From: Pseudoalteromonas sp. MM1
GTDB lineage: Bacteria; Pseudomonadota; Gammaproteobacteria; Enterobacterales; Alteromonadaceae
Reading direction: 5' to 3'
DNA length: 64,000 nt
Assembly (NCBI RefSeq): GCF_030296835.1
Contig: NZ_AP027922.1
Coordinates: forward strand, 1,178,001-1,242,000
The notes under the pieces: model-generated
Database searches by the model: none
Told to the model about the DNA's origin: nothing
What the model saw: the letters and a program-made list of their open reading frames with translations, nothing else
Program-made: the position numbers and the translations under genes
In this document: piece after piece, positions 11,504 to 30,822 of the stretch
Numbering within the stretch: position 1 is the stretch's first letter
How the letters are laid out: every line of letters begins with the position of its first letter

Positions 11504-11516
11504 TTGCAATTTGCAA
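11504..11516. promoter_or_regulatory. LuxO-type binding site upstream of the response-regulator operon
   Basis: The 13-mer TTGCAATTTGCAA fits the published Vibrio LuxO box TTGCA-WWW-TGCAA exactly. It lies 86 bp upstream of the -24 element of a sigma54-like promoter and about 110 bp upstream of the predicted transcription start. This is a typical position for a sigma54 enhancer-binding protein. Confidence 0.65.
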
Positions 11517-11588
11517 AAGCTTAGTTATCCACACGAATTATAATTCTTAAATCTAATGAATTCATCGTATTAGTAAGGCCGCTGCAAG

Positions 11589-11603
11589 TGGCATGTAAAT
11601 TGA
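11589..11603 (+). promoter_or_regulatory. Sigma54-type promoter of the response-regulator operon
   Basis: The sequence TGGCATG-TAAA-TTGA matches the sigma54 consensus TGGCACG-N4-TTGC at 9 of 11 positions, with GG and the -12 element 10 bp apart. The weak point is A in place of C in the -12 GC. The start point would be near 11615, 21 nt before the ATG at 11636. Confidence 0.55.
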
Positions 11604-11635
11604 TATTTAATGACAGAGCCATTTTACTAGGAACG

Positions 11636-12667
11636 ATGATGAATAATAACAGCCATGTTTTAGAAATTATTCAAGGGGTAATAGCACGCTTTTGCAAAGC
11701 AGACAACACAGAAGCGGCAATTACACTCATCAACAAATTACAGTGTAATTATATTTGCTTACAAGTGTCTCCTGAGCAAATGATTACTCAATGTGAAGCG
11801 TTTATCCTACCTTCGCTGAAAGCCGCTAAAAGCCATTTTGTGCTAACAGTAGAGGCCAACTTACAGGGTATTAATTTAAATTACTGGGTAGATTCGAATC
11901 CTGAAATGCACACCATTGATATACACGGATTACTAGCAACCCGTGAGCCAATTTCATCGGTAGATACAAGTAAAGAGTTTATTTGCGCAGCAAATAGTAA
12001 AGACGACTTAGAGCAAAGCATTCATTATCTAGTTAATTTAAGTGCACAAAACTATGGGTTAAAACTCGCCGATAGCAACAACACAAACGCTTTAAAAATT
12101 GAAGATGCGCGTCACCTATCTGCTGATCAACTAGCAAGTAACTTTTTAAATAATGGGGCGTCTGGGAGTATAAAAGTTTGCGCATTTGATGCGCTCAGTG
12201 AGCTACAAAGCCAACAGACTATTGCTCAGCCTGTATTGGCGTGGCCGTTCTTTGATACCGATTTAGTGAATGCAGTTAATAATTTAAATACCCACAGCAA
12301 ATTATCTGTATTGGTTGCTGATGACAGCTTGCCAAGCCAAGTTGCGACCAAAGTCATGCTTGAAATGCTTGGCTGCGCAGTAACCTGTGCAGAAAATGGC
12401 TCAAGTGCCTTACTTATTGCCCAGCAAGAGCCTTTCGATTTACTGCTGTTAGATGAGCGTATGCCGGGTATGTTTGGTAGCGATGTGGCTCAGCAGCTCA
12501 TTAAACAAAACACCCCAAACGATAACACGCCAAAAGTTATTTTAACGGGCATTACTGAGGAGCAGCAAATTGCTCAGCTGTTTGAAAAAGGGGTGACACA
12601 CTATCTTCAAAAACCGGTAACAAAAGCTGTGTTAGAAGAATTTATTAAACCTTGGCAAGCTGCCTAA
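11636..12667 (+). CDS. Response regulator with unknown N-terminal domain and C-terminal receiver
   Basis: Protein of 343 residues. The ATG at 11636 has an AGGA site. An in-frame GTG at 11588 would overlap the sigma54-type promoter and is rejected. The last 120 residues are a receiver domain: acidic pair in SVLVADDSLPSQ, phosphoacceptor D273 in LLLDERMPG, T in VILTGI, and K in YLQKPV. The first 210 residues match nothing I recognise and show no membrane segment or DNA-binding motif. It may be a signal-sensing or adaptor domain, or a single-step phosphate sink. It is the first gene of an operon with a hydrolase and a hybrid kinase. Confidence 0.8.
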   Translation: MMNNNSHVLEIIQGVIARFCKADNTEAAITLINKLQCNYICLQVSPEQMITQCEAFILPSLKAAKSHFVLTVEANLQGINLNYWVDSNPEMHTIDIHGLLATREPISSVDTSKEFICAANSKDDLEQSIHYLVNLSAQNYGLKLADSNNTNALKIEDARHLSADQLASNFLNNGASGSIKVCAFDALSELQSQQTIAQPVLAWPFFDTDLVNAVNNLNTHSKLSVLVADDSLPSQVATKVMLEMLGCAVTCAENGSSALLIAQQEPFDLLLLDERMPGMFGSDVAQQLIKQNTPNDNTPKVILTGITEEQQIAQLFEKGVTHYLQKPVTKAVLEEFIKPWQAA

Positions 12668-12688
12668 AGGCTCGTTTAGGAGGACGTT

Positions 12689-13285
12689 ATGAACGATTTA
12701 TCAAAAACAGCCTTGCTGCTCATTGGTTTTCAAAATGATTATTTTTCGCCAGATGGCATTTTATACCAAGTGGTTGAAGAGTCATCAAGAGTAACCGGTG
12801 TGGTAAATAATACGTTAGCGCTGCTCGACAAATACATAGATAAATTTGCATTAGTGCTAAGTACGCCTATTCACTTTACCCAAGATTATAGTGAGCTTAA
12901 AAATCCTATTGGTATTTTAAAAGTGATTGCTGAAGTAGGGGCTTTTAAAGCCGGCTCTTATGGTGCTCAAGGCATTAAAGAGTTTGATAAATATGGCAAA
13001 CGTATTATGCAAATACCTGGTAAGCGAGGGCTAAATGCGTTTACTCATACAGAGCTTGCAAATGTGCTTAATGAAAATGGTATAACCGACATTGTTTTAG
13101 CAGGTACGGTGACCTCTATTTGTATCGACTCTACTGCGCGCTCTGCTGTAGAGCTTGGCTTTAATGTGACGGTACTTAATGACTGTACATCAAGCAGAAC
13201 GCCATTTGAGCAATCATTTTATTGTGAAGAGGTTTTTCCGCTTTATGCCAAGGTGTGCAGCCATACAGAATTAGTAAATGAATGA
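12689..13285 (+). CDS. Isochorismatase-family cysteine hydrolase
   Basis: Protein of 198 residues, with AGGAGG before its ATG. It carries the Asp-Lys-Cys triad of the family: D in LLIGFQNDYF (around residue 15), K in IPGKRGLNAF and C in GTVTSICIDSTARS. Such enzymes hydrolyse small amides or vinyl ethers such as isochorismate, nicotinamide or N-carbamoyl compounds, and the substrate here is unknown. Its place between a response regulator and a hybrid kinase, with short spacers, is unusual. It suggests the product or substrate is linked to the signal they process, which is inference only. Confidence 0.87.
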   Translation: MNDLSKTALLLIGFQNDYFSPDGILYQVVEESSRVTGVVNNTLALLDKYIDKFALVLSTPIHFTQDYSELKNPIGILKVIAEVGAFKAGSYGAQGIKEFDKYGKRIMQIPGKRGLNAFTHTELANVLNENGITDIVLAGTVTSICIDSTARSAVELGFNVTVLNDCTSSRTPFEQSFYCEEVFPLYAKVCSHTELVNE

Positions 13286-13292
13286 GGCGCAT

Positions 13293-16097
13293 ATGGAAGA
13301 AAAAGACGAGCTACAAGTACAAGTTCATTATGCCCTAATAGAGCAGCTTTCAGCGAATACGCGCAGACAAACTAAATTACTTGCGCTACTGGATGAGTGT
13401 GTATTTGAATGTGATAAGCACTTAGTCATTAGTTACGTGAACGAAGCATGGCTGAATAAGTTGGGTTTTTCGCCGGCTATGCTTATAGGAAAAAAAATTA
13501 CATCACTGCTAGAGACCAAAGACACGTTAAATCTGCTGGCATATATTGAGTCTATTTTTGAAGGGGTATTTAGCGCCAGTATAGAGCTACAAGTTAAAAA
13601 TAATGATGGGTTCACGAACTGGTTTGAAATGCGTTTAGCCTGTGACGATAACGGCGGATTTATTGGCTCGTTACACGACATTCAACGACATAAAGACTAC
13701 CAATACTTACTCACTCAGCAGCAAGAGTACGCAAAGCGACTTTCTTTGGTGGCAAGTCACACGAATAATTTAGTTATAATTACCGATCGATTTGGCAAAA
13801 TAGAATGGGTTAATAAAAGCTTTGAGGCACTTACCAACTACACATGCGATGAAGTTATCGGGCTTACTCCAGGTAAGCTATTACAAGGGCCTAAAACCAG
13901 CCTAGAGTCGCGCCAGCTAATGGCTAAAGCGATTACAAATGGCGAACCTTTTCAAATAGAAACCGTTAATTATGATAAAAATAAAAACGAATATTGGGTT
14001 GCTATTGATGCCACTCCCGTAAAAGATGATGACGGTAACGTTCAGCATTTTATAGCCATAGAAACTAACATTACTCAGCGTGTAAAAGCTGAGCAAGCCA
14101 TGGCTGAAATAGAATATAATTACCACTCTGTGGTCGATAATATCCCTGATATTGTATTAAGGTTGGATGCGCAGGGTGGGTTATTATTTATGAATAGAGC
14201 CTGGCAAGATTTTTTCCAAACAGATATAAATAAACACCTTGGCTTACCCATTACTAATTTTGTAATGGGCAAAGATGTAGAAAAGCTAAACACAGCACTT
14301 GATGGTTACAGTAAAGGCAACCGAGAAGTTAAACGTTTAGATATTAGGTTAACCAATGCACTTAACGAGCCAAATTGGGTTGAAATGACCCTCACACCCA
14401 TTACCTCATTTAATGGCACGCACCTTACATCTATAGCGGCGACCGTGGTTGATATTCAAGAGCGTGTGGTAGCTGAGCAAATACTCTTAGATGCTAAGCA
14501 CCAGGCTGAATCTTTGGCAGAGTCTAAAAGTCGTTTTATGGCCAATATAAGCCATGAAATACGCACACCTTTGAATGCGGTGATTGGCTGTGCAGATATC
14601 TTGCATGACACAGGGCTCACAACAGAGCAAAAACGTTACACTCAAATGATTAAAACAAGTTCAGATGCATTACTGAGTATTTTAGATGATGTGCTGACCT
14701 ACTCACGCTTTGAAGCACAAGCAATCACAATAGATAATCAACCATTTAGCCTCGATATTTGCTTAGAAGAGGCGATAGATATTGTAAGTGAAAGCGCCGT
14801 GCAAAAAGGTCTCGAACTGATTTTTGACCTGCACCCTGATGTGCCAGTGCAGGTGATGGGCGATCATGGTCGTATAAGGCAAATTGCAATAAATTTACTC
14901 TCAAATGCCATTAAGTTTACTCAAAAGGGATTACTCATAGTGACAGCACAGTGTGTTGAGTTTGAAAATAACAAATTTACGTTGCAGCTTAGCTTTAAAG
15001 ATACAGGAATAGGGATTGCGCAAAACAAGCTCGAGAGTATGTTTAAGCCGTTTATTCAATCAGATAACTCTATTACTCGGGAATATGGCGGCAGTGGCTT
15101 AGGCTTAGCCATATGTAAGCAAATATGTGATGCTGCAGGAGGCAGTATTACTGTTAACTCGCAATTTGGTAAAGGAAGTGAGTTTATTGTTAATTACCCT
15201 TTATTAATAGATACAAGCGAGCAGGTGCAAAGAGAAGGCTTTTCTGCCAGAACCAAAAAGCCCTATGTGTGTGTGATAAGTAAAAACTTGCCGTTAAACA
15301 CGGCAATAGAGCATATGCTCACTCGCCATTCGATAGATTTTATACGCCTTGATAACATAGCAAAGCTAGATAGTATCGATACGCCCGACGCTATTGTTAC
15401 CACTAACGAAGCCGATTTAGATGCAGCGCAACAATTTTTAAAAAGTTACAAGAGTCTAAATAAACCGTGTTTATTACTCATAGACTTACTGGGTAAAAAC
15501 CAAAAAACAGAGGCGTCGAGCTCTGGCATGCTGAGGTTTAATGGGCCTTTTAAACCTTCTCATTTACCCAGAGCGATTGCGGCGCTTGAGGAAGCGCTTT
15601 TTCATCTTGATATTATTTTTACTAATAAAAAAGAAACCACACTAAACACAGCCACAATTAATGCTCAGCCATTTAAAGGTACGCATGTGCTTGTGGTTGA
15701 AGACAATAAAAATAACCAAATTGTAATTCAGCAATTTTTAGAGCAGCAAGGGTGCTTAGTTAAAATAGCTAGTAATGGGCAAGAGGCGATTGAAAAAGTT
15801 AAAACGCAAACAATAGATTTAATATTTATGGATATTCAAATGCCAATTTTAGACGGTATTTCTGCCACTAAAAAAATCAGAGAGTTAGCTATTGTCACCC
15901 CTATTATAGCGCTAACAGCGAATGCGATTCATGGCGATAAAGAGCGTTTTATTAAAGCAGGAATGAATGATTATTTAGCTAAACCAATTATTAGCGAAAA
16001 ACTCAATTTGCTCTTAAATCAATACCTACCAAAACTTAATGACGCTAAACACTCTAAGTTAGAGCGCATTAACGAAATTTGGTCGTTGTTAAAGTAA
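13293..16097 (+). CDS. Cytoplasmic hybrid histidine kinase (3 PAS, HisKA, HATPase, receiver)
   Basis: Protein of about 934 residues. The ATG at 13293 has GAGG at good spacing; an ATG at 13278 overlaps the previous stop. No membrane segment is visible. Domains in order: PAS (about 25-140), PAS with PAC-type end (150-265), PAS (270-390), HisKA with phosphorylated H421 in ANISHEIRTPLN, HATPase with DTGIGI and GGSGLGLAI, a degenerate receiver-like stretch without a clear Asp (650-760), and a true receiver with D847 in IFMDIQMP. It lacks a C-terminal Hpt domain, so phosphate probably leaves through a separate Hpt protein. The LuxU homologue 2 kb away is an obvious candidate. Confidence 0.9.
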   Translation: MEEKDELQVQVHYALIEQLSANTRRQTKLLALLDECVFECDKHLVISYVNEAWLNKLGFSPAMLIGKKITSLLETKDTLNLLAYIESIFEGVFSASIELQVKNNDGFTNWFEMRLACDDNGGFIGSLHDIQRHKDYQYLLTQQQEYAKRLSLVASHTNNLVIITDRFGKIEWVNKSFEALTNYTCDEVIGLTPGKLLQGPKTSLESRQLMAKAITNGEPFQIETVNYDKNKNEYWVAIDATPVKDDDGNVQHFIAIETNITQRVKAEQAMAEIEYNYHSVVDNIPDIVLRLDAQGGLLFMNRAWQDFFQTDINKHLGLPITNFVMGKDVEKLNTALDGYSKGNREVKRLDIRLTNALNEPNWVEMTLTPITSFNGTHLTSIAATVVDIQERVVAEQILLDAKHQAESLAESKSRFMANISHEIRTPLNAVIGCADILHDTGLTTEQKRYTQMIKTSSDALLSILDDVLTYSRFEAQAITIDNQPFSLDICLEEAIDIVSESAVQKGLELIFDLHPDVPVQVMGDHGRIRQIAINLLSNAIKFTQKGLLIVTAQCVEFENNKFTLQLSFKDTGIGIAQNKLESMFKPFIQSDNSITREYGGSGLGLAICKQICDAAGGSITVNSQFGKGSEFIVNYPLLIDTSEQVQREGFSARTKKPYVCVISKNLPLNTAIEHMLTRHSIDFIRLDNIAKLDSIDTPDAIVTTNEADLDAAQQFLKSYKSLNKPCLLLIDLLGKNQKTEASSSGMLRFNGPFKPSHLPRAIAALEEALFHLDIIFTNKKETTLNTATINAQPFKGTHVLVVEDNKNNQIVIQQFLEQQGCLVKIASNGQEAIEKVKTQTIDLIFMDIQMPILDGISATKKIRELAIVTPIIALTANAIHGDKERFIKAGMNDYLAKPIISEKLNLLLNQYLPKLNDAKHSKLERINEIWSLLK

Positions 16098-16402
16098 CAA
16101 GCAATGCAACCGTACTTTTAGGTTAATAGTTACAGATGGCTTTGAAGTATTTACGATTAAAGTTTTAGTTGTTAAGTAAATAAACATAAATAGTGGGTTT
16201 AGCAAAATTTTAACCTAAAAAGGTTAAAATTGACTGTTTTCTCAAAAAAGCGGTGGCGATTGAGTAATGCGAAGTAAATTACTTTTACAGCCCTAAAAAG
16301 CCTTAACGCATTAACCCAAATATTAAATAACGCTTAAATACTAATCCTTTTTAATTGATTGGGTTGAGCAGGTTGGTTCTTAATGGTTATTTTTAAATTG
16401 GT
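16098..16402. other. Intergenic region after the hybrid kinase
   Basis: AT-rich, without a convincing gene. The main structure is a palindrome at 16206-16231. Short ORFs here lack ribosome sites and family resemblance. I saw no sequence resembling the conserved Qrr RNA core. Confidence 0.5.
16206..16231. terminator. Palindrome, possible terminator of the hybrid-kinase operon
   Basis: The perfect inverted repeat AATTTTAACCT-AAAA-AGGTTAAAATT lies about 110 bp after the hybrid-kinase stop. It is AT-rich and has no long T run after it, so it could also be a protein-binding site. Confidence 0.35.
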
Positions 16403-16415
16403 TTGCATTTTGCAA
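16403..16415. promoter_or_regulatory. LuxO-type binding site upstream of the 96-residue protein
   Basis: TTGCATTTTGCAA is a perfect LuxO box and extends to a 15-bp palindrome at 16402-16416. It lies about 140 bp upstream of the sigma54 -24 element. A possible half-site, TAATGCAAAT, lies at about 16438-16447. Confidence 0.65.
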
Positions 16416-16540
16416 ATCAAAATGAAATTGAATCTCATAATGCAAATATCCGCTCAGTTATTTTTTATTCTCCCTATCAAAATAATTTTTTACTATTTGA
16501 TTTATAAGAACTTAAATATTTTATCATTATTAAATTTATT

Positions 16541-16557
16541 TTGGCATGGCTTTCGCA
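16541..16557 (+). promoter_or_regulatory. Sigma54 promoter of the 96-residue protein
   Basis: TTGGCATGGCTTTCGCA matches the consensus TTGGCACG-N4-TTGCA at all but two fixed positions, with GG and GC exactly 10 bp apart. The start point would be near 16568, giving a leader of about 68 nt. Confidence 0.75.
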
Positions 16558-16635
16558 ATATAAATACCAAGTAAAGCGAAGTTATCGTTGATATAAATTT
16601 GCTAAGTAGTTAAATAAATTTAAAGGGTGTCCATT

Positions 16636-16926
16636 ATGCAAACTAATACTAAAGTTAAACAGCAACCAAAAAAAATGTCTTTTGTTCTTACTCCAGAGTT
16701 AATGGTGCTGTCTATTATTATTGTTGCAGCTGTTATTGTTGGTGCAACAGCACTGCGAGGCACCGTTACTATAGAGCCTGTTAATAAAGGCAATACCGAG
16801 ATGTTCAGCAACAAATTTAGCAATAGTGATTTAGATAATGCCACTATTGAAAGCAACACATTAAACTACGCTCAAAACATAGATGAGCAATCTGGCCAAT
16901 CAGGCTCACAAGGTTTAAACAACTAA
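16636..16926 (+). CDS. Small single-TM protein under sigma54 control
   Basis: Protein of 96 residues, not assigned to a family. A basic N terminus (TKVKQQPKK) is followed by one hydrophobic helix at about residues 19-40 (LMVLSIIIVAAVIVGATAL) and a polar Ser/Asn/Gln-rich tail of about 55 residues ending GSQGLNN. The charge pattern predicts the N terminus in the cytoplasm and the tail in the periplasm. The start at 16636 is chosen because AAAGGG is well placed; the GTG at 16627 is too close to it. It is a single-gene unit between a sigma54 promoter and a terminator. It might be a pilin-like or signalling peptide, but no pilin cleavage motif is clear. Confidence 0.65.
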   Translation: MQTNTKVKQQPKKMSFVLTPELMVLSIIIVAAVIVGATALRGTVTIEPVNKGNTEMFSNKFSNSDLDNATIESNTLNYAQNIDEQSGQSGSQGLNN

Positions 16927-16953
16927 ACAATACTTCTCCTTAGTATTTATTTC

Positions 16954-16986
16954 GGCTGACTCTAAGCAATTAGGTCAGCCTTTTTT
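16954..16986 (+). terminator. Terminator after the 96-residue protein
   Basis: GGCTGAC and GTCAGCC form a 7-bp stem with a 13-nt loop, followed by six T residues, 28 bp after the stop codon. Confidence 0.85.
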
Positions 16987-17063
16987 ATTTTTAAAGCCAC
17001 TTTATACCTAAACCATAGCTTACTCATGATCCCACTTTAGATCAGCTTGCGTGTCAGTGTGAT

Positions 17064-17076
17064 TTGCAAAATGCAA
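17064..17076. promoter_or_regulatory. LuxO-type binding site upstream of the EAL gene
   Basis: TTGCAAAATGCAA is a perfect LuxO box inside a 17-bp palindrome (17062-17078, ATTTGCA-AAA-TGCAAAT). It lies about 100 bp upstream of the sigma54 -24 element of the EAL gene. Confidence 0.7.
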
Positions 17077-17162
17077 ATATACCTATCAATAATTTTAGGC
17101 TAACAGTTTGTTTTTAATTTGTTGAATTCAAAAGGTTTTATTTTTGTTTTTGACTGCTGGTT

Positions 17163-17179
17163 TTGGTCTGTAATTTGCA
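17163..17179 (+). promoter_or_regulatory. Sigma54 promoter of the EAL gene
   Basis: TTGGTCTGTAATTTGCA has a perfect TTGCA -12 element and GG exactly 10 bp before GC, but the CAC part of the -24 element is poor. The predicted start is near 17190, 36 nt before the chosen ATG. An in-frame start at 17163 would overlap this promoter. Confidence 0.6.
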
Positions 17180-17225
17180 ATTTATGACACAAGCTTACGG
17201 TGAGCCCTTATTTGTGGAGAGATTT

Positions 17226-18047
17226 ATGAATGCGTTTAAAAGTTTAGAGCCTATCAATACGGTCAACATTGCACGCTGGCACGAACTTGAGCAGATTATG
17301 GCTCATGCAATGAGAAACCATTGTTTTAATATGGTGTACCAGCCGCTTGTGTCTTTAACAAGTGGGCAATTAGTTGGCTTTGAATCTTTAGTGCGGTGCG
17401 AATCTTCACGCTATGGTGTTGTTGGCCCAGATGAATTTATTCCGCATGTAGAACAGTCAGGTATGATTTTAGATTTAGGTGATTGGATTTTTAAGCAAAC
17501 CCTAAGTGATTTAAGCGAAATGAGAAGTTTAGGTATGACCGATATAACGATTTCATTGAACATTTCGCCAGTACAAATTATTGAAGGGAATGTGTTTTCT
17601 AAAGTAATGACTTTGCTTGATAAGTACCAAATAGACCCCGCAGCCATAAAAGTAGAACTAACAGAAACAGCATTAATAAAAAGTCCGCAGCGTATTGCTA
17701 AAACATTCGAGCAATTTCATAAGGAAGGGGTGAAAATTTGGCTAGACGATTTTGGTACGGGTTATGCTTCACTGGGCCTTTTAAGGCAGTTTAATATTGA
17801 TGGGCTAAAAATAGACCGCAGCTTTATAAGTGGAATTACAACTAACAATGAAGACTTCACCCTATGTAGCGCAATTATTGCTATGGCGCAAAGATTAGGG
17901 CTAGAAACCATTGCTGAGGGGATTGAGCAGCGAGAACAATTGCAAATATTAGAGCAGTTAGGGTGTGATGTAGCGCAAGGTTACTTACTCGGAAGGCCAA
18001 GCAGTTTAGCCAACAATACGCAAACATGGGTAAAAAAAAACTCTTAA
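17226..18047 (+). CDS. EAL-domain cyclic-di-GMP phosphodiesterase
   Basis: Protein of 273 residues consisting of almost nothing but an EAL domain, so it is soluble and needs no membrane anchor. Catalytic positions appear intact: E53 in GFESLVR (ESL form of the EAL motif), N in LNISPVQI, E in VELTET, DDFGTGYASL, K in LKIDRSFI, E in IAEGIEQ and the QGYLLGRP end. It should hydrolyse c-di-GMP to pGpG and favour motility over biofilm. The ATG at 17226 has GGAGAG upstream. A perfect LuxO box and a sigma54-type promoter precede it, and luxU-luxO follow. Confidence 0.9.
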   Translation: MNAFKSLEPINTVNIARWHELEQIMAHAMRNHCFNMVYQPLVSLTSGQLVGFESLVRCESSRYGVVGPDEFIPHVEQSGMILDLGDWIFKQTLSDLSEMRSLGMTDITISLNISPVQIIEGNVFSKVMTLLDKYQIDPAAIKVELTETALIKSPQRIAKTFEQFHKEGVKIWLDDFGTGYASLGLLRQFNIDGLKIDRSFISGITTNNEDFTLCSAIIAMAQRLGLETIAEGIEQREQLQILEQLGCDVAQGYLLGRPSSLANNTQTWVKKNS

Positions 18048-18061
18048 CATAATGTTTCAAT

Positions 18062-18074
18062 TTGCAAAATGCGA
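18062..18074. promoter_or_regulatory. Near-match LuxO site in front of luxU-luxO
   Basis: TTGCAAAATGCGA differs from the LuxO box at one position. It lies 70 bp before the luxU start, just upstream of a likely -10 (TATAAA at 18095-18100). No GG-N10-GC element follows. This suggests repression of a sigma70 promoter, like the LuxO autorepression known in Vibrio. Confidence 0.5.
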
Positions 18075-18143
18075 AAAACGACTTACTCTAAAAGTATAAA
18101 ATATAAAATAGCTTCGTATCACAATAATAAATAAAGGCCAGAT

Positions 18144-18515
18144 ATGCCAATACCAGAAGAATATATTGATAACACCATTACTCAAGCGAATGTGTTAGCG
18201 CAACTAGAGCAAGATGTAGGCTCACTTACCTTGGTTAGGCTAGTAAACTTATTTATTAATGAATTAGAAGAAATGCGAGTTCGTCTTAAAAATGCTATTG
18301 ATGAGCAAGATGAAGATAATATTAAAGATATAATGCACGTACTTAAAAATTCAGCGGCACTGTACGGTGCTTTAACTTTAGCAGCTCTTGCCAGTCAGCT
18401 GCATGATTACCCACCCGCTACCATCGAAGAAAATATTCACGCTGCTCAGAACGTTCTACATAATCTAGAAAAAACGCATGCTGCATATCAAGTTATTGCA
18501 AATAATATTACTTAG
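18144..18515 (+). CDS. luxU: LuxU-like histidine phosphotransfer protein
   Basis: Single Hpt domain of 123 residues, close in length to Vibrio LuxU (114). The phosphorylated histidine is H65 in IMHVLKNSAALYGA, which aligns with ISHALKSSAASFGA of V. harveyi LuxU. The preceding helix (VRLVNLFINELEEMRVRL) also fits. It would carry phosphate between hybrid sensor kinases and LuxO in the cytoplasm. It lies 11 bp upstream of luxO; the order is the reverse of the Vibrio luxO-luxU operon. General Hpt proteins are an alternative, but the partner next door makes LuxU the best name. Confidence 0.85.
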   Translation: MPIPEEYIDNTITQANVLAQLEQDVGSLTLVRLVNLFINELEEMRVRLKNAIDEQDEDNIKDIMHVLKNSAALYGALTLAALASQLHDYPPATIEENIHAAQNVLHNLEKTHAAYQVIANNIT

Positions 18516-18526
18516 AAGGCTCTGCC

Positions 18527-19921
18527 ATGAACGATTCTCAAAAAAAAGCACTGGTTTATATTGTAGAAGATAGCATTGCAAGTGGGGCTCTTTATGCGAG
18601 TCAATTAGAGCAAGCAGGGCACGAATGTAAACACTTTACCGATGGCTACTCTGCCTTGGTTGGTATAAAAGAGATGATGCCGGATGTTATTGTTCAAGAT
18701 GTTTGCTTACCCGATATTAGCGGCTTAGAAGTGCTACAGTTTGTTAAAAAGCAAGAAAAGCCTGCTAACGTAGTAATGATCACTTCAAATAGCTCTATTG
18801 ATGTTGCAGTAGAGGCGATGCGTTTAGGTGGCTTTGATTTTTTAGAAAAACCGTTTTCAGGCCAGCGCTTAGTGAACGCCGTTGATAGCGCACTTTCACA
18901 AAAAGCACCTCCTGCAGTTAAAATTCAAGAACAAAAAGCGCAAAACACCTCTGGCTTTATTGGTGAATCGTTAGCAATGCAAACGGTGTTTAGGCTTTTA
19001 GATAGTGCGGCACGAAGCAAAGCATGTGTTTTTATTACCGGAGAGAGTGGCACAGGTAAAGAAGTGTGCGCGCAAACTTTGCACGACACCAGCCCAAGAA
19101 GTGAAGGGCCATTTATTGCAATTAACTGTGCTGCTATTCCAGGAGAGCTATTTGAGTCAGAGTTTTTTGGTCATGTAAAAGGGGCCTTTAGCGGAGCGTT
19201 AAGTGATAGAAAAGGGGCTGTAGAAGTTGCAAACGGCGGCACTTTATTTTTAGATGAACTGTGTGAGATGGAGCTCAACCTACAAGCTAAGTTATTGCGT
19301 TTTTTACAAACGGGTGCGTTTAATCGGGTAGGCAGTAGCGAGGTTTTACACAGTAATGTAAGGCTAGTGTGTGCAACAAATAGAAGCCCTGTAGTTGAAG
19401 TTGCCGAAGGGCGTTTTAGAGAAGATTTATACTATAGGCTTAATGTTATTCCTGTAAAGTTACCTCCGCTACGCGAGCGAGCTGGCGATATAATGTTGCT
19501 TGCAAAGCATATTTTAAAGCAAAAAAGTGAAAGTAACGCTAAGTTATTCCATCGCTTTTCAAAAGAAGTTGAAAACCTTTTTTGCAACTACGATTGGCCC
19601 GGTAATATCCGTGAGCTGCAAAATGTTATCGAAAATATCGTTGTTATCAACGAGGGTGACGTAGTTGAGCTAGATATGTTACCTAGCTCATTTGGTGTTA
19701 ATTCTGCTATTCCAATCAAAAATACCAGCTCGTCTCAATCTGCAGAGCAAATACAAACTAACTCGCTTATGGGCGTACACGACATAGAGCCCCTGTGGCA
19801 GGTTGAAAAAAGGGCAATAGAGTCGGCAATAGCAGTATGTGATGATAACATTCCACTTGCTGCAGCCTATTTAGGAGTAAGCGCCTCGACTATTTACAGA
19901 AAAATAAAAGGTTGGGGTTAG
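18527..19921 (+). CDS. luxO: LuxO-like sigma54-dependent response regulator
   Basis: Protein of 464 residues. Receiver domain (1-125) with D58 in VIVQDVCLPD, then an AAA+ sigma54-activator domain with GESGTGKE (Walker A), GAFSGA (the sigma54 contact loop, S for the usual T), LFLDELCEM (Walker B) and FREDLYYRLNVIP. It ends in a Fis-type helix-turn-helix, AAAYLGVSASTIYRKIKGW. Long stretches match V. harveyi LuxO, notably FIGxSxxMQxVxRxxDSAAxSKAxxFITGESGTGKEVC and PLWxxEKxAIExAIxxCxxNIPxAAxYLxVSxSTIYRK. SypG-type paralogues are the main alternative. Several LuxO boxes lie in the preceding 8 kb. Confidence 0.88.
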   Translation: MNDSQKKALVYIVEDSIASGALYASQLEQAGHECKHFTDGYSALVGIKEMMPDVIVQDVCLPDISGLEVLQFVKKQEKPANVVMITSNSSIDVAVEAMRLGGFDFLEKPFSGQRLVNAVDSALSQKAPPAVKIQEQKAQNTSGFIGESLAMQTVFRLLDSAARSKACVFITGESGTGKEVCAQTLHDTSPRSEGPFIAINCAAIPGELFESEFFGHVKGAFSGALSDRKGAVEVANGGTLFLDELCEMELNLQAKLLRFLQTGAFNRVGSSEVLHSNVRLVCATNRSPVVEVAEGRFREDLYYRLNVIPVKLPPLRERAGDIMLLAKHILKQKSESNAKLFHRFSKEVENLFCNYDWPGNIRELQNVIENIVVINEGDVVELDMLPSSFGVNSAIPIKNTSSSQSAEQIQTNSLMGVHDIEPLWQVEKRAIESAIAVCDDNIPLAAAYLGVSASTIYRKIKGWG

Positions 19922-30443: not shown

Positions 30444-30552
30444 ACTTTAACTTGTAGTTATTCTCATAGTTGGTAGAATACGCCCGCTTAATCGTTTTGG
30501 CTGAATTAGTGATCGGCTAAAGCACCTATTAAATTTAACTTTTGGAGTTATT

Positions 30553-30822
30553 ATGTCACTAAGCAATCAAGAAAAAATCGATATCATTGCTAAATTTGCA
30601 CGTGCTGAAGGCGACACTGGTTCACCTGAAGTACAAGTAGCTTTACTTACTTTTGATATCAACAAGCTTCAAGGTCACTTTGCTGACCACAAGCATGACT
30701 TCCACTCACGTCGTGGTCTGCTTCGTAAAGTAAGTACTCGCCGTAAATTGCTTGATTACCTAAAAGGTAAAGACATCTCGCGTTATACTGCGTTAATCCA
30801 AGAGCTTGGCCTACGTCGCTAA
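30553..30822 (+). CDS. rpsO: 30S ribosomal protein S15
   Basis: Protein of 89 residues, the standard length, that binds the central domain of 16S rRNA. It has [38 protein letters not shown] and ends [10 protein letters not shown], the universal S15 pattern. A GGAG site precedes the ATG. The approximately 100-nt leader may contain the autoregulatory structure known from E. coli rpsO; this was not resolved here. Confidence 0.98.

Follow-up and report, generated by a model that had tools for sequence, protein, structure and literature searches.

A LuxO-like sigma54 activator as candidate regulator of local protein genes and a distant Tad-like pilus operon in Pseudoalteromonas sp. MM1

A 64,000-nucleotide stretch of the Pseudoalteromonas sp. 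MM1 genome (contig NZ_AP027922.1; C1:1178001-1242000, hereafter the window; genome G000, two contigs, 4.49 Mb) encodes a LuxO-like regulator close to three perfect LuxO-type boxes, each followed by a sigma54-like promoter and a protein gene. A Tad-like pilus operon at a distance of 0.63 Mb has further boxes. What is read directly from the DNA is the gene content, the boxes and promoter-like sites with their conservation, and the linkage and co-occurrence with Tad-like genes. Taken together these features make it likely that a dedicated phosphorelay switches on the pilus operon, a pilin-like protein, an EAL-domain protein and the relay's own sensors.

In the proposed pathway a hybrid histidine kinase (gene at 13278) would pass phosphate through an Hpt protein (18144) to the LuxO-like activator (18527), which would bind TTGCAWWWTGCAA boxes and open sigma54 promoters lying 85-139 bp downstream. 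One target would be the operon for a receiver protein, an isochorismatase and the hybrid kinase itself, that is, the system's own sensors, giving positive feedback. Further targets would be the genes for the pilin-like and EAL proteins and, at a distance, two genes of a divergent Tad-like operon, those for the secretin and the small pilin-like protein. From these features we infer DNA binding, dependence on RpoN, the flow of phosphate, the direction of regulation and the function of the pilus.

Boxes and promoters in the window

A previous reading of this DNA, made from its letters and predicted open reading frames (the sequence-only reading), had proposed a local LuxO/sigma54 regulon hard to explain by chance. 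The perfect boxes which it placed at 11504, 16403 and 17064 are all present. The window has three perfect copies of TTGCAWWWTGCAA where 0.14 would be expected, and at least three copies were found in 0 of 100 shuffles; with the conservation described below, this bears out the view that chance is a poor explanation for the set. Copies with 0-1 mismatch number nine against 7.6 expected, so that one-mismatch copies by themselves are no commoner than chance and mean little. The one-mismatch copy noted previously at 18062 is also present, and overlaps a second at 18055 which had not been listed.

Across the 4.49 Mb genome, perfect TTGCANNNTGCAA occurs eight times and the reversed pattern six times. 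Four of the eight have an A/T-only core, namely the three boxes of the window and one at C1:1823231, and in the genome scan all four have a sigma54-like site 85-139 bp downstream. The box word is thus not over-abundant genome-wide; its placement is what departs from random. The probability that at least three of eight boxes fall inside a given 6.6 kb is 1.8e-7, albeit for a stretch picked post hoc. The observation as a whole is partly confirmed. The remaining four TTGCANNNTGCAA copies (L004, L005, L007 and L008), whose cores are mixed, were treated as chance occurrences. For three of them the sigma54-like strings in the adjoining 350 bp are weak (best scores 10, 9.5 and 11), while the copy at L005 lies inside an open reading frame with a 12-point string 48 bp downstream. 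A box at G015:C7, with neither a sigma54-like site nor a matched gene of the set nearby, was likewise set aside.

Promoters were scored with weights of our own, built from the sigma54 consensus, and the control was the best score over 130 start positions at random points of the window. The sites after boxes 1, 2 and 3 score 12.5, 13.5 and 12.5; scores of 11.5, 12.5 and 13.5 are reached at random points with frequencies of 0.128, 0.034 and 0.009. Their TGG triplets begin at 11589, 16542 and 17164, within one base of the positions first given. The claim that all three are of the GG-N10-GC type holds for two (GG at 16543 and 17165); the promoter with GG at 11590 is GG-N10-GA, and its counterparts in aligned relatives also depart from the consensus (TTGA or TTGT).

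Conservation of the cluster

Twelve clusters of Pseudoalteromonas were aligned: the window, L015, L158-L166 and L169. L162 and L009, L165 and L010, L167 and L016, and G015 and L015 are apparently one record each, and the twelve are free of double counting. All 12 retain the boxes and sigma54 elements that precede the response-regulator, pilin-like and EAL genes, a result that answers the question of conservation in related strains in favour of the sequence-only reading. In the more distant clusters the response-regulator proteins fall to 54% identity and a large part of the intergenic DNA is diverged, and still the half-sites and the -24/-12 letters are constant. Spacing is also maintained. 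The box-promoter distance before the response regulator is 84-85 bp in the 11 clusters measured, and L015, for which a different string at 74 bp was measured, has in the alignment the element of the other clusters; before the pilin-like gene it is 126-141 bp and before the EAL gene 88-101 bp. Box, sigma54 promoter and regulator gene are thus kept as a set in the twelve clusters, and the suggestion that they belong together is upheld.

Genes of the control cluster

The features of the cluster are collected in Table 1. The receiver protein, the isochorismatase-family hydrolase and the hybrid kinase share a probable operon (window 11639-16097). No Pfam family matched the N-terminal 204 residues of the receiver protein, and the 96-residue protein encoded at 16636 matched no family in Pfam or NCBIfam. 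Over 44 N-terminal residues the latter shares 45% identity with the small pilin-like protein encoded in the Tad-like operon (E 3.3e-5 in a one-genome search). Shewanella (L013) and Spongiibacter (L014) likewise have an isochorismatase-family hydrolase gene close to the regulator. Elsewhere in the window, at 30493-30609, lies an ordinary ribosomal S15 leader (Rfam RF00114, 85 bits).

Table 1. Features of the control cluster in window coordinates; distances run from the start of the box to the TGG of the promoter.
Feature	Position	Strand	Sequence or domain	Remarks
LuxO-type box 1	11504..11516	+	TTGCAATTTGCAA	0-1 mismatch in 12/12 aligned clusters
sigma54-like promoter	11589..11604	+	TGGCATGTAAATTGAT	GG-N10-GA; 85 bp after box 1; TGGCA and TTG columns kept in 12/12
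Protein with C-terminal receiver domain	11639..12667	+	PF00072	first gene of probable operon
Isochorismatase-family hydrolase	12689..13285	+	PF00857	
PAS-containing hybrid histidine kinase with receiver domain	13278..16097	+		
LuxO-type box 2	16403..16415	+	TTGCATTTTGCAA	0-1 mismatch in 12/12 aligned clusters
sigma54-like promoter	16542..16557	+	TGGCATGGCTTTCGCA	139 bp after box 2; kept in 12/12
Pilin-like membrane protein	16636..16926	+		96 aa
LuxO-type box 3	17064..17076	+	TTGCAAAATGCAA	0-1 mismatch in 12/12 aligned clusters
sigma54-like promoter	17164..17179	+	TGGTCTGTAATTTGCA	100 bp after box 3; kept in 12/12
EAL-domain protein	17226..18047	+	PF00563	probable cyclic di-GMP phosphodiesterase; 3.3e-69
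Two overlapping one-mismatch boxes	18055..18074	+		starting at 18055 and 18062
Hpt phosphotransfer protein, LuxU-like	18144..18515	+	PF01627	HVLKNSA at residue 65
LuxO-like sigma54 activator	18527..19921	+	PF00072, PF00158, PF02954	receiver, AAA+ with GAFSGA loop, Fis-type helix-turn-helix

The paired boxes upstream of the Hpt and luxO-like genes are of a different kind. A box with 0-1 mismatch occupies this position in 12 of 12 clusters. A sigma54 promoter at the 18062 box was rejected, the best score being 9.5 in the window; in ten relative loci the best scores are 7.5-11.5, none of them good. Instead, TTGCAA at 18062-18067 and TACTCT at 18084-18089, with a 16 bp spacer, form a candidate sigma70 -35/-10 pair. 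The box overlaps this possible -35 element and probably serves autorepression, with which such an arrangement would fit. Autorepression of V. harveyi luxO is reported in the accessible text of one paper (PMC3482212).

The Tad-like pilus operon

The fourth A/T-core box, C1:1823231, lies 87 bp before a sigma54-like TGGTCTTATAATTGCT (score 11.5), which is followed by the start of a secretin gene. After the secretin come genes for a TPR protein, a small pilin-like protein, a CpaB-like protein, a CpaF/TadA-type ATPase, two T2SSF proteins, a larger pilin-like protein and a hybrid kinase-like protein. In Pfam the secretin, T2SSE and both T2SSF domains are above cut-off and RcpC/CpaB is below (18 of 28.8 bits). 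The best NCBIfam match of the ATPase is the TadA family (291 bits, cut-off 373), and the CpaB-like protein reaches 33 bits against a cut-off of 71. The operon is named Tad-like because of the ATPase, the CpaB-like protein and the gene set; in our judgement it holds the Tad/Flp core set of secretin, CpaF/TadA ATPase, TadB/TadC and CpaB. Neither TadZ nor a prepilin peptidase (TadV/CpaA) was noticed among the open reading frames of the operon, although no model search was made for them. The small pilin-like protein has no match in PDB; a search of 369 genomes of the class gave one clear match, in G000, and two that are weak, in G104 and G186. The last gene (L171:913-3744) encodes a 943-residue hybrid kinase-like protein with PAS_7 and receiver domains, for which Pfam, at E up to 1, lists neither a HisKA nor a HATPase domain.

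A widened motif, TYGCAWWWTGCRA, was defined after seeing the relatives, and its counts are therefore descriptive. It has six sites in the MM1 genome, four in the window cluster and two in the Tad-like operon, of which one precedes the secretin and the other the small pilin. The regulon called local by the sequence-only reading does have local targets, but it probably reaches further, to these two sites.

The arrangement recurs in relatives. At the secretin loci, a box with 0-1 mismatch and a sigma54-like site 75-87 bp further on are found in 11 of 12, and at the small-pilin loci a box and promoter 85-87 bp apart in 10 of 12. No small-pilin pair was found within the stretches of L099 and L100, which are possibly too short to include it; for G055 it is present in L167. 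In G031 a perfect box at C230:65259 stands at the small pilin, and here the box alone is listed. The TYGCAWWWTGCRA tally covers G000 and nine relatives, G079, G007, G055 and G068 being left out of the 14 genomes with the regulator. In these ten genomes 56 of 80 sites fall in the window cluster or the Tad-like locus: 6/6 in G000, 6/7 in G037, 6/6 in G097, 6/8 in both G087 and G010, 6/9 in both G008 and G080, 4/5 in G015, 4/9 in G031 and 6/13 in G096. In the relatives too, it is the place of the sites, not their number, that is unusual.

The regulator and the secretin also occur together. In a survey of 99 genomes of the genus, the regulator was present in 14 (identity at least 63%) and the secretin in 12 (at least 69%), all of them among the 14; in G096 the secretin is in two pieces. 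The secretin is thus present in 12 of 14 genomes with the regulator and 0 of 85 without (Fisher 9.8e-14, a value which ignores kinship and so overstates). In G068 a secretin remnant with stops lies beside the regulator. At L169 (G087) the regulator itself is split, as by insertion, into a piece of about 318 residues and a second about 1.6 kb on.

Furthermore, five of eight named loci of the regulator's clade have Tad-like genes no further than 10 kb from the regulator. Four of the five are from other genera, namely Pseudomaricurvus alcaniphilus (L011), Psychromonas sp. SP041 (L012), Shewanella ulleungensis (L013) and Spongiibacter thalassae (L014), and the fifth is from Pseudoalteromonas sp. 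0303 (L016, one record with G055). All five linked loci have boxes before or among the Tad-like genes. Since the linkage is seen in these loci and is absent in close kin of the window, it may be ancestral, in which case the window lineage may have split the module and retained the boxes.

Points against the proposed pathway

A number of observations weigh against this interpretation. No protein of the operon reaches an NCBIfam cut-off, the only hits that point to Tad being those of the ATPase and the CpaB-like protein, both sub-threshold, and the best NCBIfam matches of the secretin are GspD and MshL. The response-regulator promoter lacks GC at -12. Flp-type prepilins are cut after a glycine and have glutamate at +5, yet in 12 of 12 orthologues the 16636 pilin-like protein has S or N, not the prepilin G, before the cut. 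Compared by number rather than place, TYGCAWWWTGCRA has six sites in G000 against nine for its reversed form, which also equals or outnumbers it in 11 of 13 relatives. L100 (the same as G055) lacks a box with 0-1 mismatch before the secretin, and L009 (P. distincta ATCC 700518), L010 and L015, close kin of the window, show no Tad-like machinery within the stretch examined.

Other objections favour an alternative in which the regulator controls local genes only, while the Tad-like operon answers to a different sigma54 activator and its boxes are there by chance. In its own genome the operon lies 0.63 Mb from the regulator. That genome has one rpoN and 11 strong matches to AAA+ sigma54 activators, the LuxO-like regulator included, along with four weak and doubtful ones, so that ten other strong activators are available. 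The sigma54 site before the secretin is weak, its score of 11.5 being reached by random points at a frequency of 0.128, and G015, whose regulator is 95% identical, retains the cluster and its boxes without such a secretin. Set against this, the operon has two boxes, kept in most relatives, all six TYGCAWWWTGCRA sites of the genome fall within the two loci, and regulator and Tad-like genes are neighbours in five other loci. We consider restriction to the local genes unlikely.

Identity of the regulator and absence of a detected Qrr RNA

The second alternative, that this is an ordinary quorum-sensing LuxO acting through Qrr RNAs, with the protein-gene promoters as side targets, is very unlikely, even though the best NCBIfam hits are LuxO (NF041946, 588 bits) and LuxU (NF041948, 52 bits for the Hpt protein) and the box is the same. 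Both hits are under the curated cut-offs, 800 for the LuxO equivalog and 140 for LuxU. In a tree of 78 sequences, with long branches and unsure deep joins, the regulator falls in a clade of nine rows (support 100/100) separate from Vibrionaceae LuxO (31 rows, 100/99). Other clades in the tree are one of 12 Vibrio rows, which we take to be SypG, and a second Pseudoalteromonas clade of nine rows. A plain Vibrio LuxO orthologue was accordingly rejected: the name luxO used by the sequence-only reading survives as LuxO-like. The regulator also stands outside the SypG-like clade, and the related loci looked at carry Tad-like rather than exopolysaccharide genes. It has the NtrC-type architecture of a sigma54 activator, with the loop GAFSGA in place of GAFTGA. 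Its recognition helix, ASTIYRK, is one residue apart from the PSTIYRK of LuxO, a near-identity which may explain the unchanged box. By the tests made, the regulator resembles LuxO in its DNA site and is outside the Vibrio LuxO family.

No Qrr reached the Rfam cut-off in any of 99 Pseudoalteromonas genomes, G000 included, under strict filters which also gave none in 14 control genomes; nor was any found at cut-off in the 64-kb window. Beside luxO, in contrast, Rfam Qrr was detected in three of three Vibrionaceae loci tested as a positive control (L020, L026 and L033), and the same test found none in L009, L015 and L088. A Qrr output of this regulator, tested indirectly in this way, was therefore rejected, although, given the strict filters and their zero hits in control genomes, a divergent small RNA may exist. 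Sub-threshold matches at G082:C12:185526-185632 (L152, 38 bits) and G003:C460:3462-3571 (L153, 36 bits) are possible divergent Qrr RNAs in genomes without the window's regulator. The sequence-only reading had suggested protein-gene targets and a Qrr-independent output; with protein genes downstream and no Qrr found, that part is supported, and its interpretation overall partly so. Nothing in the analysis linked the system to quorum sensing.

The last alternative, chance palindromes and chance sigma54-like strings in AT-rich intergenic DNA, draws on the genome-wide counts against reversed patterns (8 versus 6, and 6 versus 9 when widened), but in view of the three boxes against 0.14 expected in the window and the half-site and -24/-12 columns invariant in 12 aligned clusters it is hardly credible.

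The regulator's clade is sparse, the searches of 369 genomes of the class with the small pilin and the regulator having given few matches. Within the MM1 genome the next best match listed has 39% identity to the regulator, and no other regulator above 53% was found across the 369 genomes. A further 13 LuxO-like regulators from the class, with 45-53% identity, were examined together with flanks of up to 10 kb, some of the stretches being short. In seven of the 13 (L172-L176, L179 and L181) a sigma54-like site scoring at least 13.5 comes after a relaxed box, and hybrid kinase or Hpt genes are often nearby. Several relaxed LuxO boxes also lie within about 60 kb of a second LuxO-like regulator in G096:C33, G001, G005, G009 and G012. 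A member of the second Pseudoalteromonas clade, in Pseudoalteromonas sp. XI10 (L047, 1-16500), was read by eye as part of an exopolysaccharide locus that has its own genes for Hpt-like and hybrid kinase proteins.

Comparison with known systems

LuxO is the head of the Vibrio Qrr circuit. The system described here shares with Vibrio LuxO/LuxU-qrr an Hpt protein and an activator of receiver-AAA-helix-turn-helix architecture, and where a Vibrionaceae locus has a perfect box next to luxO, its best sigma54-like site is likewise close, 62-140 bp away except in L035 (182 bp). The differences are that the targets here are protein genes, that no Qrr was found and that the activator belongs to a different clade. 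The Hpt gene here precedes that of the activator, unlike in Vibrio, and the regulator has QDVCLPD and GAFSGA where Vibrionaceae LuxO, among the rows listed, has LDLRLPD and GAFTGA.

In the accessible text of one report, the LuxO upstream activating sequence is the 13-bp TTGCAWWWTGCAA, as here, that of SypG is TTCTCANNNTGMDWN, and SypG is also able to work from the LuxO boxes of qrr1 (PMC10162802). SypG, of the Vibrio syp exopolysaccharide system, and the L047 regulator are likewise LuxO relatives serving local surface-structure genes through sigma54. Here, by contrast, the structure would be a pilus and not a polysaccharide, the clades are separate, and the box has the LuxO form, not the SypG form. 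Tad/Flp (type IVc) loci have in common with the MM1 operon the secretin, a CpaF/TadA-type ATPase, two T2SSF proteins, and CpaB-like, TPR and pilin-like proteins; they differ from it in that no NCBIfam cut-off is reached here, the secretin is nearest to GspD/MshL and a hybrid kinase-like protein ends the operon.

Among the papers listed by searches of the open-licence literature of PubMed Central, at most 7-25 per search, none was noticed that ties a LuxO-type regulator to Tad pili, which is not proof of absence. In Aliivibrio salmonicida, the accessible text of one study describes tad genes as raised in a luxI mutant and, citing earlier work, in litR and rpoQ mutants as well (PMC6499059), an indirect link in another system. 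Another report, again in its accessible part, measured luxO and rpoN expression in Pseudoalteromonas and concluded that their action matches that in Vibrio and Pseudomonas (PMC6275029).

Implications

A broader evolutionary view can be offered tentatively, and we hold it to be somewhat short of an even chance. The LuxO/SypG family may at root regulate surface structures, each branch being a dedicated Hpt-fed sigma54 activator with conserved boxes of its own ahead of pilus or polysaccharide genes, and the Qrr RNAs of Vibrio may be a derived target. That protein genes were the older targets is suggested by the seven of 13 further LuxO-like loci which carry a box and a strong sigma54-like site. 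The branch described here would then be a Tad-pilus branch, coupling pilus assembly to the breakdown of cyclic di-GMP.

These observations suggest that switches of the LuxO-like family are able to control surface machinery directly. Outside Vibrio, a gene called luxO is not necessarily a sign of quorum sensing. For the little-known Tad-like system, the regulator would be a first candidate. This sister clade of LuxO may thus provide a testable example of a switch in which the binding word was retained whilst the output changed, to a pilus machine, an EAL protein and the system's own sensors.

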